Below are positions 58,456 through 63,955 of a stretch of 64,000 nt of DNA, one piece after another (position 1 is the first letter of the stretch; each line of letters opens with the position of its first letter). The position numbers and the translations under genes are program-made. The notes under the pieces are model-generated. The model saw only the letters and a list, made by a program, of their open reading frames with translations. It had not been told where the DNA came from and did no database searches. Source of the stretch: a bacterium (GTDB lineage: Bacteria > Vulcanimicrobiota > Vulcanimicrobiia > Eremiobacterales > Eremiobacteraceae); NCBI GenBank assembly GCA_902812405.1, contig CADDZI010000004.1, positions 1-64,000 of the forward strand, in the 5' to 3' direction.

Positions 58456-59691
58456 TCAGCGGAGATCGCGCAAGCCGGACCGGCGCGCGGCGCGGACCGC
58501 AGCCAGCGCGACGAGCATGCCGCCCGCGGCCAAGGTGCTACGCAACCCGGCCACGCTGGCCAGCGAGCCCAAGAGCCATGCGCCGAGCGGCATGAAGCCA
58601 AGGAAGATCATCGTATAGAGAGACATGACCCGGCCGCGCATTTCCAGCCGCGTGTGGGTCTGTAGAAGGGTGTTCGTCATGCCCATGAAGAGCATGATGC
58701 TCGCGCCTAAGACGATAAGGAGCAGCGTACCCGGCCACGCCCGCGAGGAGACGGCAAAACCAGCCAGGGCCAATCCGGCGAAGGCGGCACAGGTTGCGGC
58801 CAACCGTCCGCGGTGGCGGGCCGAGCCGATGAGTGCCACCGTCACCGACCCGGCAAGAGCCCCGGCGCCCGAAGCAGCCATGAGAGTGCCCAACGTCGTC
58901 GGACCTTGTGCGAGAACGGTCCGGACAAAAGCCGGCAGCAGTTGGATGTAGGGCCGGGCAACAACCGAGACGAGGAGAGCCAGCGAGAGCAGCGTCAGGA
59001 TGGCGGGTTGACCCCGCACGTACGCGATGCCGTCGCGGACTTCGGTCCAGATGCCGGCTTGGTGCTGCCCAGGCACGGGCGGCTTAGGGGTCATGAGCAC
59101 AAGCGCGACGATGACGGCTGCGAAGGAAGCGGCGTTCGTGTAGAACGTGGCCGCGATGCCCACGGTATCGACGAGGACGCCGCCCAAGGCCGGACCGATG
59201 ATCCCCGGGCCGTTGAACGCAGCGGAATTGAGCCCAATGGCGTTCATCAATTCGCGCGGGCCGACAAGCAGCGGCACGAGTGACTGACGGGTGGGTGCGT
59301 CAAAGGTGAGAGCGCAGGCCGAAATTCCCGCCAGCAGGACGACTTCCCAGATACGGACGACCCGTGCCTGCGTTAAAATCGCAAGACCCAGGCCCGCGAG
59401 GCCCAGGACCGCCTGCGTGACGATCAAGAGACGGCGCCGGTCGATGTGATCTGCTACTGCGCCCGCAACCCCGGAAAGGGCCAAGACCGGGATGGCTCGC
59501 ACGAAACCAATGATACCCAGGTACAAAGGCGCCAGCGCCGGCCGGGGTGCGAGCTGGACGACCAGCCAACCCTGCGCAAGCGTGGCCATCCAGCTTCCCG
59601 TATTGGAAATGAGGAGTCCGATCCACAACAGGCGGAACTCCCGGTAGGACAGGGCCCCAAAGCGGGGGCGGGTAGGCCCGTCCTGGGCCAT
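58456..59691 (-). CDS. MFS transporter, DHA3-type exporter
   Basis: A 411-aa permease with twelve spans: FRLLWIGLLISNTGSWMATL, then the GAVADHIDRRRLLIVTQ loop (motif A variant of the enterobactin-exporter/DHA3 group), SACALTFDAPTRQSLVPLLV, GRVMSLYTMIFLGFMPLGAW. The start is the ATG at 59689-59691, matching the N-terminus FGALSYREFRLLW; the longer frame covers a pair of direct repeats. Substrate unknown. Confidence 0.88.
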   Translation of the reverse strand: MAQDGPTRPRFGALSYREFRLLWIGLLISNTGSWMATLAQGWLVVQLAPRPALAPLYLGIIGFVRAIPVLALSGVAGAVADHIDRRRLLIVTQAVLGLAGLGLAILTQARVVRIWEVVLLAGISACALTFDAPTRQSLVPLLVGPRELMNAIGLNSAAFNGPGIIGPALGGVLVDTVGIAATFYTNAASFAAVIVALVLMTPKPPVPGQHQAGIWTEVRDGIAYVRGQPAILTLLSLALLVSVVARPYIQLLPAFVRTVLAQGPTTLGTLMAASGAGALAGSVTVALIGSARHRGRLAATCAAFAGLALAGFAVSSRAWPGTLLLIVLGASIMLFMGMTNTLLQTHTRLEMRGRVMSLYTMIFLGFMPLGAWLLGSLASVAGLRSTLAAGGMLVALAAVRAARRSGLRDLR

Positions 59692-59804
59692 GGTGCGGGG
59701 TTCTTGAGCACTATCCGCCACGCGGCAGCCTTCGCACGACCGGTCATGGGCTCCGGCAGGCAATCGCATGCCACACCGTCCTGGGCCGCAGCCGCGACGG
59801 CGGG

Positions 59805-59838
59805 CCCGGTCCAACATGTCACAACCTTGTGGGCGCGG
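59805..59838. repeat. Direct repeat upstream of MFS gene, copy 1
   Basis: CCCGGTCCAACATGTCAC then AACCTTGTGGGCGCGGC. The second copy is 64 bp away. It centres on ACATGT. Confidence 0.75.
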
Positions 59839-59868
59839 CGGGGGAAGAACACCCGGCAGTTCTAGCGG

Positions 59869-59906
59869 CCCGGTCCAACATGTCACACAACCTTCGGGGG
59901 CGCGGC
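59869..59906. repeat. Direct repeat upstream of MFS gene, copy 2
   Basis: Same sequence with a 2-bp insertion (CACACAACC) and one or two more changes. The tandem spacing of about six helical turns suggests paired operators for the transporter. Confidence 0.75.
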
Positions 59907-59973: not shown

Positions 59974-60010
59974 GGAAAAACAGTAACGACCGGGCGTGGC
60001 CCGGTCGTTA
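59974..60010 (-). terminator. Strong terminator of the RNA gene
   Basis: Perfect 12-bp stem: 59984-59995 with 59999-60010 and a 3-nt loop. On the minus strand it is followed by CTGTTTTTCC. Confidence 0.85.
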
Positions 60011-60227
60011 ACTGTTTGGCCGATGGCATTTTCGCCGCGCGTGCGAACCTCGCTCCCTAGTCAGCAGGTCCGCTTGCGTAGGCTTAACTGGGACGCGATC
60101 CCCAGAGCCATCACCCGGCGTGAGCCGGGTCCCCAACGGTAGGGGTACCATTCCGAGGCTCTCAGCTCTCCACTATTGCACTAGTGGCACCCGTTGTTGC
60201 TGATCACCCCGGCACCGCGGTTGGTGT
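59974..60227 (-). ncRNA. Unassigned structured RNA, about 254 nt
   Basis: No open frame, but a transcription unit of its own on the minus strand: promoter at 60234-60262 and terminator at 59974-60010. In RNA order the hairpins are CCACUA/UAGUGG; a closing stem AGAGCC/GGCUCU that encloses CCCC-UACCGUU-GGGG and ACCCGGC-UCAC-GCCGGGU; then CUGGGG/UCCCAG and the terminator stem. Long-range UCAGCA/UGCUGA pairing is possible. I compared it by eye with tmRNA, RNase P, SRP, 6S and common riboswitches and found no convincing match. It could be a stand-alone RNA or an attenuated leader of the MFS gene 280 bp beyond. Confidence 0.6.
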
Positions 60228-60233
60228 ACTGGC

Positions 60234-60262
60234 AGTATACTCAACACCGGCGTTACGCGCAA
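60234..60262 (-). promoter_or_regulatory. Promoter of the RNA gene
   Basis: On the minus strand: -35 TTGCGC (60257-60262), 17-bp spacer, -10 TATACT (60234-60239). Predicted transcription start near 60227. Confidence 0.7.
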
Positions 60263-60291
60263 CTGAACGGACGTTCGTTTTGCAAAAAAAA

Positions 60292-60322
60292 TTGTGGATA
60301 GCTGTTGCATCCTTGTGGATAA
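60292..60322 (+). promoter_or_regulatory. Two DnaA-box-like sites
   Basis: TGTGGATAA (60314-60322) is the exact complement of the DnaA box TTATCCACA; TGTGGATAG (60293-60301) differs at one base. They are direct repeats 21 bp apart, next to an A-run (60284-60291), in an AT-rich pocket upstream of the RNA promoter. Confidence 0.5.
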
Positions 60323-60331
60323 GGCTGTGAG

Positions 60332-61699
60332 TTAGGCTGACGATGCGTCAGACATCACGCCGAGAGCGTACCACAGCTGCTCTTCGGTGATGACGAGGGG
60401 CGGCGAAAGCGAGACAACCGCAGACTGCGGGCCGCTTCTCAGGACGAGAATCCCGCGCTGCAATGCGGCGCGCGCCGCCGCGGCCGCTGCCCGGCCGTCG
60501 GGGCGCCCGTCTTCGGTAATGAACTCGAGTCCCCACAGCAAACCGGCACCCCGAACGTCTCCGACACGATGCGGGTTTGCGGCCCGGATGCCTTCCAGAC
60601 GCTCGCGAACGCGCGGAGCCAGAGCGTCCGCCCGCTCGACAAGCCTGCGCTCCCGGACCACGCGCAAGCAGGCCAGGGCCGCCGCACAACCGGCCGGATG
60701 GCCCATGAATGTTGCCGTATGGATCGCCTCGCCGGTCGACGCCGGCCAGGCATCCATGACCTCGGACCTTCCGATGCAGGCTGCAAGCGGAAAGCCGGCC
60801 GCAAGGCCTTTGCCGACGCACAGCAGATCGGGAGCCACGCCAGCGTGCTCGCAGGCAAACCACCGGCCGGTACGCCCGAAACCGGTAAAGATTTCGTCAA
60901 AGATAAGCAGCAGACCGCGTGCGTCACACAGCCTGCGCAATGCGGCGAGCCAGCCGGCGGGCGCTGGGACGTCGCCGCCGCGCCCAAGGATGGGCTCGAC
61001 CAGGACCGCCCCAATGCGATCGCCCTCTCTGTCCACTATGTCAACCACGGAGGCCAGGCATGCGACGCCGCACTCCGGATAGCGCAAAGCCAGCGGACAG
61101 CGATAACAGTACGGATAGTCGGCTCTTCGTCCGAAACCTCCCAGCTGATCGGCAAACGGCAAGCGGAAGAGCTCGCCGTCCGTGACCTCAAGGGCACCGT
61201 AGCCGAGACCGTGGTACGCACCTCGGAAGGAGATGACCCCCGGCTTTCCGGTGGCCAGTTTGGCGGTCTTCAGAGCGACTTCGACCGCCTCCGAACCCGA
61301 TCCGGTCAAAATCGCCCGTTTGGGTCCGGGTCCGGGCATCAGCCGGCACAGCTCTCGCGCCAGCTGCAGGCGCGGTTCAGAGGGATAGATATCTCCCAGG
61401 CCATGGAAGAGGCGCTGCGCCTGGCCGGCCATGGCTGATACGACGTCGGGGTTCGCGTGCCCGACGGAAGCGACGCCGAAGAAACCCGAGAGGTCAACGT
61501 ACACGTTGCCGTCGACGTCGGTGACGTTTGCCCCGAAGGCTCGCTCGATGATGATCGGGCCGCCGTCGCCCCCATACGTCAGGTTGCGGCTCTCGCATTC
61601 CCGCCCTTGCGCCCAGACTGCGCGGCTGCGCGGACCGGGAGGTTCCGCCACGATTCGCGGCAGCTGAGTGCCAAACGCCGGCACGTCGGCGGCGTTCAC
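60332..61699 (-). CDS. Class III aminotransferase
   Basis: A 455-aa PLP enzyme of the omega-aminotransferase group: GGPIIIERAFGANVTDVDGN, AILTGSGSEAVEVALKTAKL, SFRGAYHGLGYGALEV, PLP Asp in LLLIFDEIFTGFGRTGRWFA, PLP Lys in LLCVGKGLAAGFPLAACIG. It uses GTG at 61697-61699 in a GTGA overlap with luxC. An insert with several Cys (YPYCYRCPLALRYPECGVAC) is unusual and may bind metal. It is third in the lux-type operon, so the aldehyde made by LuxC is a plausible amine acceptor. Confidence 0.88.
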   Translation of the reverse strand: MNAADVPAFGTQLPRIVAEPPGPRSRAVWAQGRECESRNLTYGGDGGPIIIERAFGANVTDVDGNVYVDLSGFFGVASVGHANPDVVSAMAGQAQRLFHGLGDIYPSEPRLQLARELCRLMPGPGPKRAILTGSGSEAVEVALKTAKLATGKPGVISFRGAYHGLGYGALEVTDGELFRLPFADQLGGFGRRADYPYCYRCPLALRYPECGVACLASVVDIVDREGDRIGAVLVEPILGRGGDVPAPAGWLAALRRLCDARGLLLIFDEIFTGFGRTGRWFACEHAGVAPDLLCVGKGLAAGFPLAACIGRSEVMDAWPASTGEAIHTATFMGHPAGCAAALACLRVVRERRLVERADALAPRVRERLEGIRAANPHRVGDVRGAGLLWGLEFITEDGRPDGRAAAAAARAALQRGILVLRSGPQSAVVSLSPPLVITEEQLWYALGVMSDASSA

Positions 61700-62862
61700 G
61701 TCGCGTTGCGGCTGAGGAAGTCGGCCAACGCGGGGCGGTAGCCCAGGGGCGGGCGCTGCATCTCGCCGAGACGGCAGACCCGCAGTGCGCCGGCCGCAAG
61801 GAATGCATGATGCAGCGCGGCGGTCGCCTCGCCGGCGACACCGACCGTGTCCAGCCGCGCTCCCAGAGCACCGGCCGCCGACGCTGCGGCATCTGGGGTC
61901 GCGCATGGCTTGACGATGGCGATTCGGCCAAAGCCGGCGCACGCCGGAGGCGAATACGGCTCGACGCCGACGACGAAGTCGGGCACGCCGTGCCGCTGCG
62001 GCCCGATGAGGATGGTATCCAGGGCGTGGGTGGCCGGCGGCAACGCGCGCACACGTAGGCGCCGGACGAACTCGGCCACCGCGGCTTTCTCGGCGTCGCC
62101 GGCCAGGGCCCGCGGCAGTGTCACGCCGATACGCAGGAGTGCGTCGCGCAGCGCGTGGGCGAAGAGAATGGCGCGTGCTTCCCCACCTTCGACGTAGACG
62201 GACTGCGGCGAGAGGCAGCCCCGCTGGTCGAAGAGCGCGATGTCGCGTGCGGCGGCGTCGGCCGCGGCGTGCACATCCGCGTCAGCACCGACGAATGCGA
62301 TGCTGTAGGCGGTGCCATATCCGATAACCTCGACGCGCGCCGGTGCCCGGCGGCGCACATCGGCGATTGTTTCGTCGTCGCCGAAAACGAGGATGCGATC
62401 CACGCGCCCGAACACCTTGGCTTCGAAGTCCGCATCACCGCCGCTCCAGCGCAGGGCGCGCAGCGTGCCGGCGACCGGTGGCCCCAGCGTTTCGAATTGT
62501 TCGGCCACGATGTCGGCCAGGTGCAACTCGCGGTGCGATGCCTTAAGGAGAATCGTCGATCCGGCGGCCGCGGCGCAGTAGGCCACCGCGATGGCTGGGC
62601 CGATGACGTTGCCCGGAAGGATGGCCAACACGCGCAGGCCGCCGGCATCCGCATCCGGGATCCGGCTCAAAAAAGCATCTGCGTCGCGCAGGACGTTGTC
62701 GAGTGCCGCTTCGACGACGGGCGCCGGCCACTGTTCTCCCGCCAGCCGGGCGCGGGCGGCTCGACGCACGCCGGAGGCCGGGTCCGCCCACTGCGCAGCC
62801 CCAGCAAGGAGAACCGAGCGTCGCTTGTCTGCGAGAGCCCGGGCATCAACCGCCCGCGGCAC
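61696..62862 (-). CDS. luxC: LuxC-like acyl reductase
   Basis: A 388-aa member of the LuxC fatty-acid/acyl-CoA reductase family (aldehyde dehydrogenase superfamily). The active-site Cys is in ALFDQRGCLSPQSVYVEG. Substrate and cofactor region: LRVLAILPGNVIGPAIAVAY, STILLKASHRELHLADIVAE, RVEVIGYGTAYSIAFVG. It reduces an acyl thioester to aldehyde with NADPH. GTG start with GGAG upstream, overlapping the luxE end by 17 bp. No luciferase genes are in the window. Confidence 0.87.
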   Translation of the reverse strand: MPRAVDARALADKRRSVLLAGAAQWADPASGVRRAARARLAGEQWPAPVVEAALDNVLRDADAFLSRIPDADAGGLRVLAILPGNVIGPAIAVAYCAAAAGSTILLKASHRELHLADIVAEQFETLGPPVAGTLRALRWSGGDADFEAKVFGRVDRILVFGDDETIADVRRRAPARVEVIGYGTAYSIAFVGADADVHAAADAAARDIALFDQRGCLSPQSVYVEGGEARAILFAHALRDALLRIGVTLPRALAGDAEKAAVAEFVRRLRVRALPPATHALDTILIGPQRHGVPDFVVGVEPYSPPACAGFGRIAIVKPCATPDAAASAAGALGARLDTVGVAGEATAALHHAFLAAGALRVCRLGEMQRPPLGYRPALADFLSRNAT

Positions 62863-63955
62863 GCAAAGTCTCCATCGTTAAACTGCACCCTTTAGGCGGT
62901 GCGGCCGGCGATCGCCCAAGGTACACAAAACCCTTATCCTGCAGGCGAACGAGATCGGCCGTCAGGACCGCTGCGACCGAACCACGGTTGACCAGATCGA
63001 CGACCTGCAGCAAGCCCGGTTCACCGGGAGGCACGTCGGCGCCGGAGATCGGGTCGACCGCCGCAATCCTGGCCCAGTGCGGACCCATCTTCAGGCCGTC
63101 GCGAGGGGGCGCACCGAGGAGCGCGTCTCGCAGGCTGGCGTCGTACCACTGGCTGCCTAATTCGCACATGCCGTACTCGGACAAACACAACGGCGCCGGG
63201 ACGCCGAACAAGGCGCTCAGATCTGCATACAGTTCGTCACGTTCGACCGTACGTGAACGCCCCTTGAAACCGCCGGTTTCCAGGACGCGGCTGCCCGGCG
63301 GCAGATCGAAGCGGATGCCGCGGGCGCGACAGAAATCGATAAAATGCACGAAGGCGAAGGCGGTACCGAAGACGATCACAGGCTCGGCGGCAACCGCCAA
63401 GGACCGGCACAAGCGGCCGGCGTCCAAGCGGTCGCCGTGTACGAAGAAGCCGCCACCCGCACCGTGGCGCTGATGCAGCCGGCTCAGCATGTAGGACAGC
63501 GACGAGTGCGGGGCGTCCTCGAACGGCGGAGCGAGGCAGAACATCGGCATGGCATCCCGATCCGGCAGCACCCAGCGTGCGAACTGCCGGCTCAGCGAGA
63601 GATCGTAGAGTCTCGTGGTCTCGAGCTCGTGGACCGACGGGCGGCCGCCGGCGCGCGTCGTACCGCTGGAGATAAAACGCAAGACTGTCCTTTCGGGCGG
63701 AAAGCACGCCAGTCGGGCGTCGCCAAACGATGCTGCGGACACGGCGGGAATATCTTGCCAGCGACGGACGTCGCGGGGGGTCACCCCTCGCTGGTCGCAG
63801 AACGCGCGGTACGGCGCATTGTGTGCGTACTGGTAGGCAAATAGCCGCACGGCGAGATCGGTAAAGACGGTCTCGCTGCCGCCATCCTCGGCGAGGATGT
63901 AGGCGGAGATGTCCTGATCGAGTTCGGCGGCTGCCTGGGCCGCGTCGGTGTGCAC
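62846..63955 (-). CDS. luxE: LuxE-like acyl-protein synthetase
   Basis: A 369-aa ANL-type adenylating enzyme of the LuxE family: nucleotide loop RFISSGTTRAGGRPSVHELE, VLETGGFKGRSRTVERDELY, LCLSEYGMCELGSQWYD, and a C-terminal VVDLVNRGSVAAVLTADLVR. LuxE activates a fatty acid as acyl-AMP, loads it on its own Cys and hands it to LuxC. It is the first gene of the unit visible here; the operon may begin beyond the window edge and the start is not fixed. Confidence 0.88.
   Translation of the reverse strand: MHTDAAQAAAELDQDISAYILAEDGGSETVFTDLAVRLFAYQYAHNAPYRAFCDQRGVTPRDVRRWQDIPAVSAASFGDARLACFPPERTVLRFISSGTTRAGGRPSVHELETTRLYDLSLSRQFARWVLPDRDAMPMFCLAPPFEDAPHSSLSYMLSRLHQRHGAGGGFFVHGDRLDAGRLCRSLAVAAEPVIVFGTAFAFVHFIDFCRARGIRFDLPPGSRVLETGGFKGRSRTVERDELYADLSALFGVPAPLCLSEYGMCELGSQWYDASLRDALLGAPPRDGLKMGPHWARIAAVDPISGADVPPGEPGLLQVVDLVNRGSVAAVLTADLVRLQDKGFVYLGRSPAAPPKGCSLTMETLRAAGG

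Follow-up and report, generated by a model that had tools for sequence, protein, structure and literature searches.

What kind of gene occupies the gap between an aminotransferase gene and a transporter gene in this genome of Candidatus Eremiobacteraceae? The gap lies in a 64,000-nucleotide stretch of DNA, here called the window, for which a sequence-only reading had proposed an orphan RNA, structured and equipped with a promoter and a terminator of its own. Comparison with homologous loci leaves us in very little doubt that the gap holds a genuine non-coding RNA gene of about 250 nt on the minus strand.

An RNA gene outside the known families

The predicted gene extends on the minus strand from an inferred +1 at about 60227, where conservation resumes after an unconserved spacer, to an end at about 59976, and has its own promoter and terminator hairpin. 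Along the minus strand a -35 element, a 17-nt spacer, a -10 element, the inferred start, the folded core and a terminator hairpin with a T5 tail follow one another; the core (60018..60227, minus strand, 210 nt, with the inferred +1 at 60227) matches our covariance model R1 at 216 bits. The orphan status first claimed for this RNA held: the Rfam scan proposed along with that claim returned no family for the region at the gathering threshold (Rfam 15), and a permissive scan (E up to 10) gave only sub-threshold miRNA and lncRNA noise there. When six homologous loci were compared with Rfam, no family appeared consistently even below threshold. The gap was also correctly described as a structured RNA region without an open frame, since no frame is conserved in it and the segment folds with z = -5.86. 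Moreover, the 12 intact cores differ by indels whose lengths are not multiples of three, and this speaks against a protein-coding gene.

Could this be one of the known housekeeping RNAs in diverged form? Its length, complex fold and pseudoknot-like element would suit such an origin. Yet RNase P RNA, 6S RNA and SRP RNA are present elsewhere in the same genome, ARAGORN finds no tRNA-like or tmRNA match in the locus, and the lack of an Rfam match points the same way, so that we regard this origin as highly improbable. For tmRNA, the genome-wide search covered the alpha type and found none. We rejected 6S identity specifically: a bona fide 6S RNA (RF00013, 94.3 bits) lies on another contig, and the fold of our RNA is different.

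Comparative evidence for the fold

The folding energy of the whole segment is -142.5 kcal/mol, and none of 200 shuffles folds as well. Without the terminator the core reaches only z = -2.99, so much of the single-sequence folding signal stemmed from the terminator. The comparative evidence for the fold is far stronger. In a sequence-only alignment of the core from 12 sequences (A4), with shuffles and slid partners as controls, 95.0% of cells are paired in the proposed fold. Covariation across homologous gaps had been suggested as a check on the original description, and here two-sided compensatory changes support 21 base pairs; shuffles give 10.0 +/- 1.9 such pairs, and slid partners give 1-6. 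Unconstrained RNAalifold recovered the same helices, among which P2, P3, P5 and the long-range P6 are best supported.

All elements of the fold are on the minus strand. At the 5' end, the nearly invariant hairpin H1 (60213..60226) pairs CACC[A/G] with CGGTG. It is followed by P2 (60212-60206 with 60159-60153, spanning 60153..60212), which encloses the hairpin P3 (60187-60170) with its conserved UGCAA loop; two-sided changes affect 4 of 7 pairs in P2 and 5 of 6 in P3. A 3' domain (60018..60149) is closed by P0 (60149-60147 with 60020-60018; GGU/ACC versus GGC/GCC) and P6 (60112-60108 with 60026-60022), in which GATGG/CCATC is replaced by the compensatory combinations GATAG/CTATC and GATGA/TCATT. 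Within this domain lie P4 (60131..60145), a CCCC-loop-GGGG hairpin; P5 (60113..60130), with two-sided changes in 4 of its 6 pairs; P7 (60088..60105), CUGGG-GAUCGCGU-CCCAG, whose loop is invariant in 12/12; and the extended hairpin P8 (60034..60083), which is variable in sequence and keeps most of its pairing at only 53% identity. A pseudoknot is possible between AACGG in the P2 loop (60191..60195) and CCGUU in the P4 loop (60139-60135). These segments are complementary in all twelve sequences and invariant; covariation therefore has no power on this element, which stays a proposal.

One part of the original description had to be abandoned. The AGAGCC/GGCUCU stem that it placed at the centre of the RNA pairs in 57% of homologue cells, no better than shuffles, and is missing from the minimum-energy fold. 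With that stem wrong, the argument for ligand binding built on it falls, and our analysis gave no sign of ligand binding.

The terminator fared better. The 12-bp stem with a T-run that had been claimed is present as a 12-bp hairpin with a T5 tail (59976..60010, minus strand), and its stem covaries, with 97.8% pairing across 10 sequences. Several genomes, however, have a weak T-tract.

Distribution within one bacterial family

Of 14 genomes of Candidatus Eremiobacteraceae (Eremiobacterota) in the sample, 13, from 9 genera, proved in a DNA search to carry the element. The sole genome without it is 72% complete, and in one of the 13 the RNA is split between two contig ends; the cores of the 12 intact sequences measure 210-215 nt. 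According to the covariance model, the RNA is single-copy per genome. All genomes are draft or metagenome assemblies, and because the homologues come from one family, part of the invariance may reflect short divergence.

Beyond the family the trail fades. In sister families R1 gave only weak, mostly partial matches, with no convincing match near the orthologous aminotransferase and nothing convincing in 420 kb of a single-contig sister-family genome (G014). The aminotransferase itself is kept in these families, and in most loci luxC/luxE-like genes lie close to it, but neither the RNA nor an exact DnaA box is present in about 1.5 kb around it. A pattern scan of GTDB genomes yielded six true matches, all in Eremiobacterota; the 18 other matches, including one in Actinomyces (L068, 22 bits), scored at most 22 bits and were judged chance fits to the short P7 pattern. 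The RNA was not found on viral contigs. On the sequences searched, and with strict filters in the class-wide search, it thus appears to have been acquired by Eremiobacteraceae or to have arisen there, or else to have diverged past detection elsewhere.

A promoter footprint with a palindrome

The promoter was originally called near-consensus. Its core is a real, conserved footprint, but only 8 of 12 positions agree with the consensus, it was missed by a consensus scan, and what tells us most, a DnaA box and a palindrome further upstream, had been overlooked. The -35 element TTGCGC (60257..60262, minus strand) keeps TTG in 12/12 genomes, and the -10 element (60234..60239, minus strand) is TATACT in 11/12 and TATGAT in 1/12, with a spacing of 17-18 nt in the 12 genomes. 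Conservation is 0.82 in the stretch TATCCACA..GTTC and about 0.8 at the inferred start, but only 0.32 in the spacer between -35 and -10, which is as unconserved as the flanks. That TTG, TATACT and their spacing are kept while the spacer sequence is not marks a real promoter footprint.

Abutting the -35 element is the palindrome GAACGTCCGTTC (60265..60276, minus strand; centre -43). The form GAAC-N4-[AG]T[TC]C occurs at -43/-44 in 12/12 genomes, and a search of 922 kb of family DNA found the palindrome with AAAA directly before it nowhere but at the RNA promoter. Does this make the RNA a member of the SOS regulon, with GAAC-N4-GTTC as a LexA operator? The palindrome does resemble the CGAAC-N4-GTTY boxes upstream of lexA in 8 family genomes. 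Scored with a matrix built from 16 such boxes, which themselves reach 17-27 bits, the window palindrome nevertheless attains 7.8 bits and is outscored by five other sites in the window; in five genomes its second half reads ATTC. SOS control is consequently improbable in our view, and the palindrome may belong to a regulator other than LexA. As an observation on the lexA genes themselves, two CGAAC-N4-GTTY boxes, a Gram-positive-type LexA motif, precede lexA in each of the eight genomes (loci L131-L138), about 58-63 bp apart.

DnaA boxes at a fixed distance

DnaA is the replication initiator, and the DnaA box is the docking site from which it starts chromosome copying. The proximal box at the RNA promoter, CTATCCACA (60293..60301, minus strand), is centred at -69; its core TATCCACA is invariant in 12/12 genomes and fixed at -69/-70 from the inferred +1. 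A second box in the window, an exact match to TTATCCACA (60314..60322, minus strand), is centred at about -90. Extra upstream boxes occur in 5/12 genomes: three are at -90/-91, two at -111 and one at -124. Most of them fit a series in which boxes at -69, -90 and -111 are separated by 21-bp steps, about two helical turns. The number of DnaA-box matches within one mismatch in the 64-kb window is unremarkable, so the evidence rests on their fixed position across genomes.

The core TATCCACA occurs at 33 sites in 915 kb of non-redundant family DNA: 15 at the RNA promoter, 14 beside or upstream of dnaA and 4 elsewhere. This sample was chosen around RNA and dnaA loci, and the ratio of 29/33 is accordingly not a genome-wide rate. 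In six whole genomes searched, same-strand (direct) box pairs were found solely at the RNA promoter. From this positional conservation we consider it likely that DnaA controls the promoter. Activator sites typically occupy positions such as -69 and -43 when the -35 element is weak, which favours activation over repression.

Because DnaA boxes cluster both here and upstream of dnaA, the DNA itself might be what matters, as a titration or reactivation locus of the datA/DARS kind with a secondary transcript. That seven of the 12 genomes have a single box, always the one at -69, ties the box to the promoter, and the base-pair covariation in the RNA indicates selection on the RNA; we therefore hold a titration locus to be quite unlikely and favour promoter control by DnaA. 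We also rejected the locus as oriC, because in each of six family genomes examined the RNA is on one contig and dnaA, with its box cluster, on another; GC skew was too weak to help on the origin question. Separately, the dnaA region of the single-contig sister-family genome (L115, G014) has no TTATCCACA within one mismatch in 20 kb at dnaA. It holds looser matches only, for example TTTTCCACA immediately ahead of contig base 1, and the DnaA box may differ there.

Cis leader or trans-acting RNA?

Upstream of the RNA, on the same minus strand, lies a class-III aminotransferase gene (60332..61717; Pfam PF00202), the last of a luxE-luxC-aminotransferase cluster (Pfam LuxC and LuxE); downstream lies an MFS_3 transporter gene (58456..59691, minus strand; Pfam PF05977). 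The syntenic order is luxE-luxC-aminotransferase-RNA-MFS, followed by pyruvate dehydrogenase E2. The cluster spans 60332-63955 in the window, with no luciferase among the open frames examined, and its products might convert fatty acids into fatty amines. In sister families, orthologues of the aminotransferase next to luxC/luxE-like genes are widespread. Between the MFS start and the RNA terminator (59800-59900), the sequence GGCCCGGTCCAACATGTCACA..ACCTT is present in two near-identical copies, a possible operator pair or small repeat.

This arrangement invites the idea of a cis-acting leader or riboswitch that senses a ligand and whose terminator controls read-through into the transporter gene. 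Every locus that extends far enough has the MFS gene downstream of the RNA and on its strand, the terminator comes after the folded core, and in most genomes the RNA directly precedes the MFS gene, which counts against action in trans. In two genera (G001 and G008), on the other hand, a DUF4139 gene on the opposite strand (L153:3776-5227 and L156:195-1796) intervenes between the RNA and the MFS gene, and makes a leader of the MFS mRNA unlikely there; these are the genera with the RNA closest to that of the window, about 86% identical to it. Inspection showed no antiterminator pairing, and the MFS start in the window lies about 285 nt past the terminator. A riboswitch thus seems unlikely to us, and with considerable confidence we read the gene arrangement as that of a trans-acting RNA.

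A possible output of the replication initiator

Combining these lines of sequence evidence, we lean towards a new standalone RNA family of about 250 nt that is specific to Candidatus Eremiobacteraceae, acts in trans and is under DnaA control. From the same comparisons we infer a working model of its transcription, its control by DnaA and the direction of that control, its action in trans and its function. A sigma-70-type promoter of its own, weak in its -35 element, would drive transcription of the RNA; DnaA, bound upstream in helical phase, would activate (or gate) this promoter together with a further regulator at the palindrome. RNA levels would then track replication initiation or DnaA availability, and the folded RNA would act in trans through the invariant UGCAA loop, the GAUCGCGU loop and AACGG/CCGUU. 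Protein binding is a tentative suggestion for how it works, one that we find somewhat likelier than base-pairing with mRNA; a search for pairing of the conserved loops with dnaA leaders (three genomes) or lexA leaders gave no consistent signal and no target.

How does this RNA compare with known systems? The CcnA ncRNA of Caulobacter crescentus, whose gene lies in the origin (oriC), is flanked by DnaA and CtrA boxes and presumably has CtrA as its activator (PMC8959179), is a non-coding RNA tied to replication or cell-cycle control, as our RNA would be. Unlike CcnA, the Eremiobacteraceae RNA belongs to a different phylum, lies away from the dnaA-adjacent box cluster and has a promoter in which the position of a DnaA box is fixed. 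DnaA-regulated promoters away from oriC, such as that of the protein gene sda in B. subtilis, also have DnaA boxes on their upstream side (PMC8203912), as here, whereas the product here would be a structured RNA; the terms 'sRNA', 'small RNA' and 'non-coding' are absent from the text of that review. Like the orphan structured bacterial RNA families OLE, ROOL and GOLLD (PMC12286853), our RNA is conserved, covaries and was found by comparative genomics, but it is much shorter, comes from another phylum and has no Rfam similarity. It shares with 6S RNA a standalone structured form and roughly the same size class, and differs in being multi-branched, where 6S RNA is one long hairpin with a central bubble. 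Keyword searches of the open literature on non-coding or structured RNA in Eremiobacterota turned up one incidental paper only, and a prior description is possible.

The host belongs to a little-studied soil bacterial family, and the RNA adds a covariation-supported, uncatalogued family to a phylum with almost no RNA biology. Its promoter links it to the replication initiator and so raises a testable question: can a structured RNA be an output of DnaA? The fixed, phased DnaA boxes open this question to binding and reporter tests without culture of the host. Possibly, if the sequence evidence is read in this way, this would be the first trans-acting structured RNA family switched directly by DnaA, an RNA relay in Eremiobacteraceae that may signal the initiation of replication to other processes of the cell.
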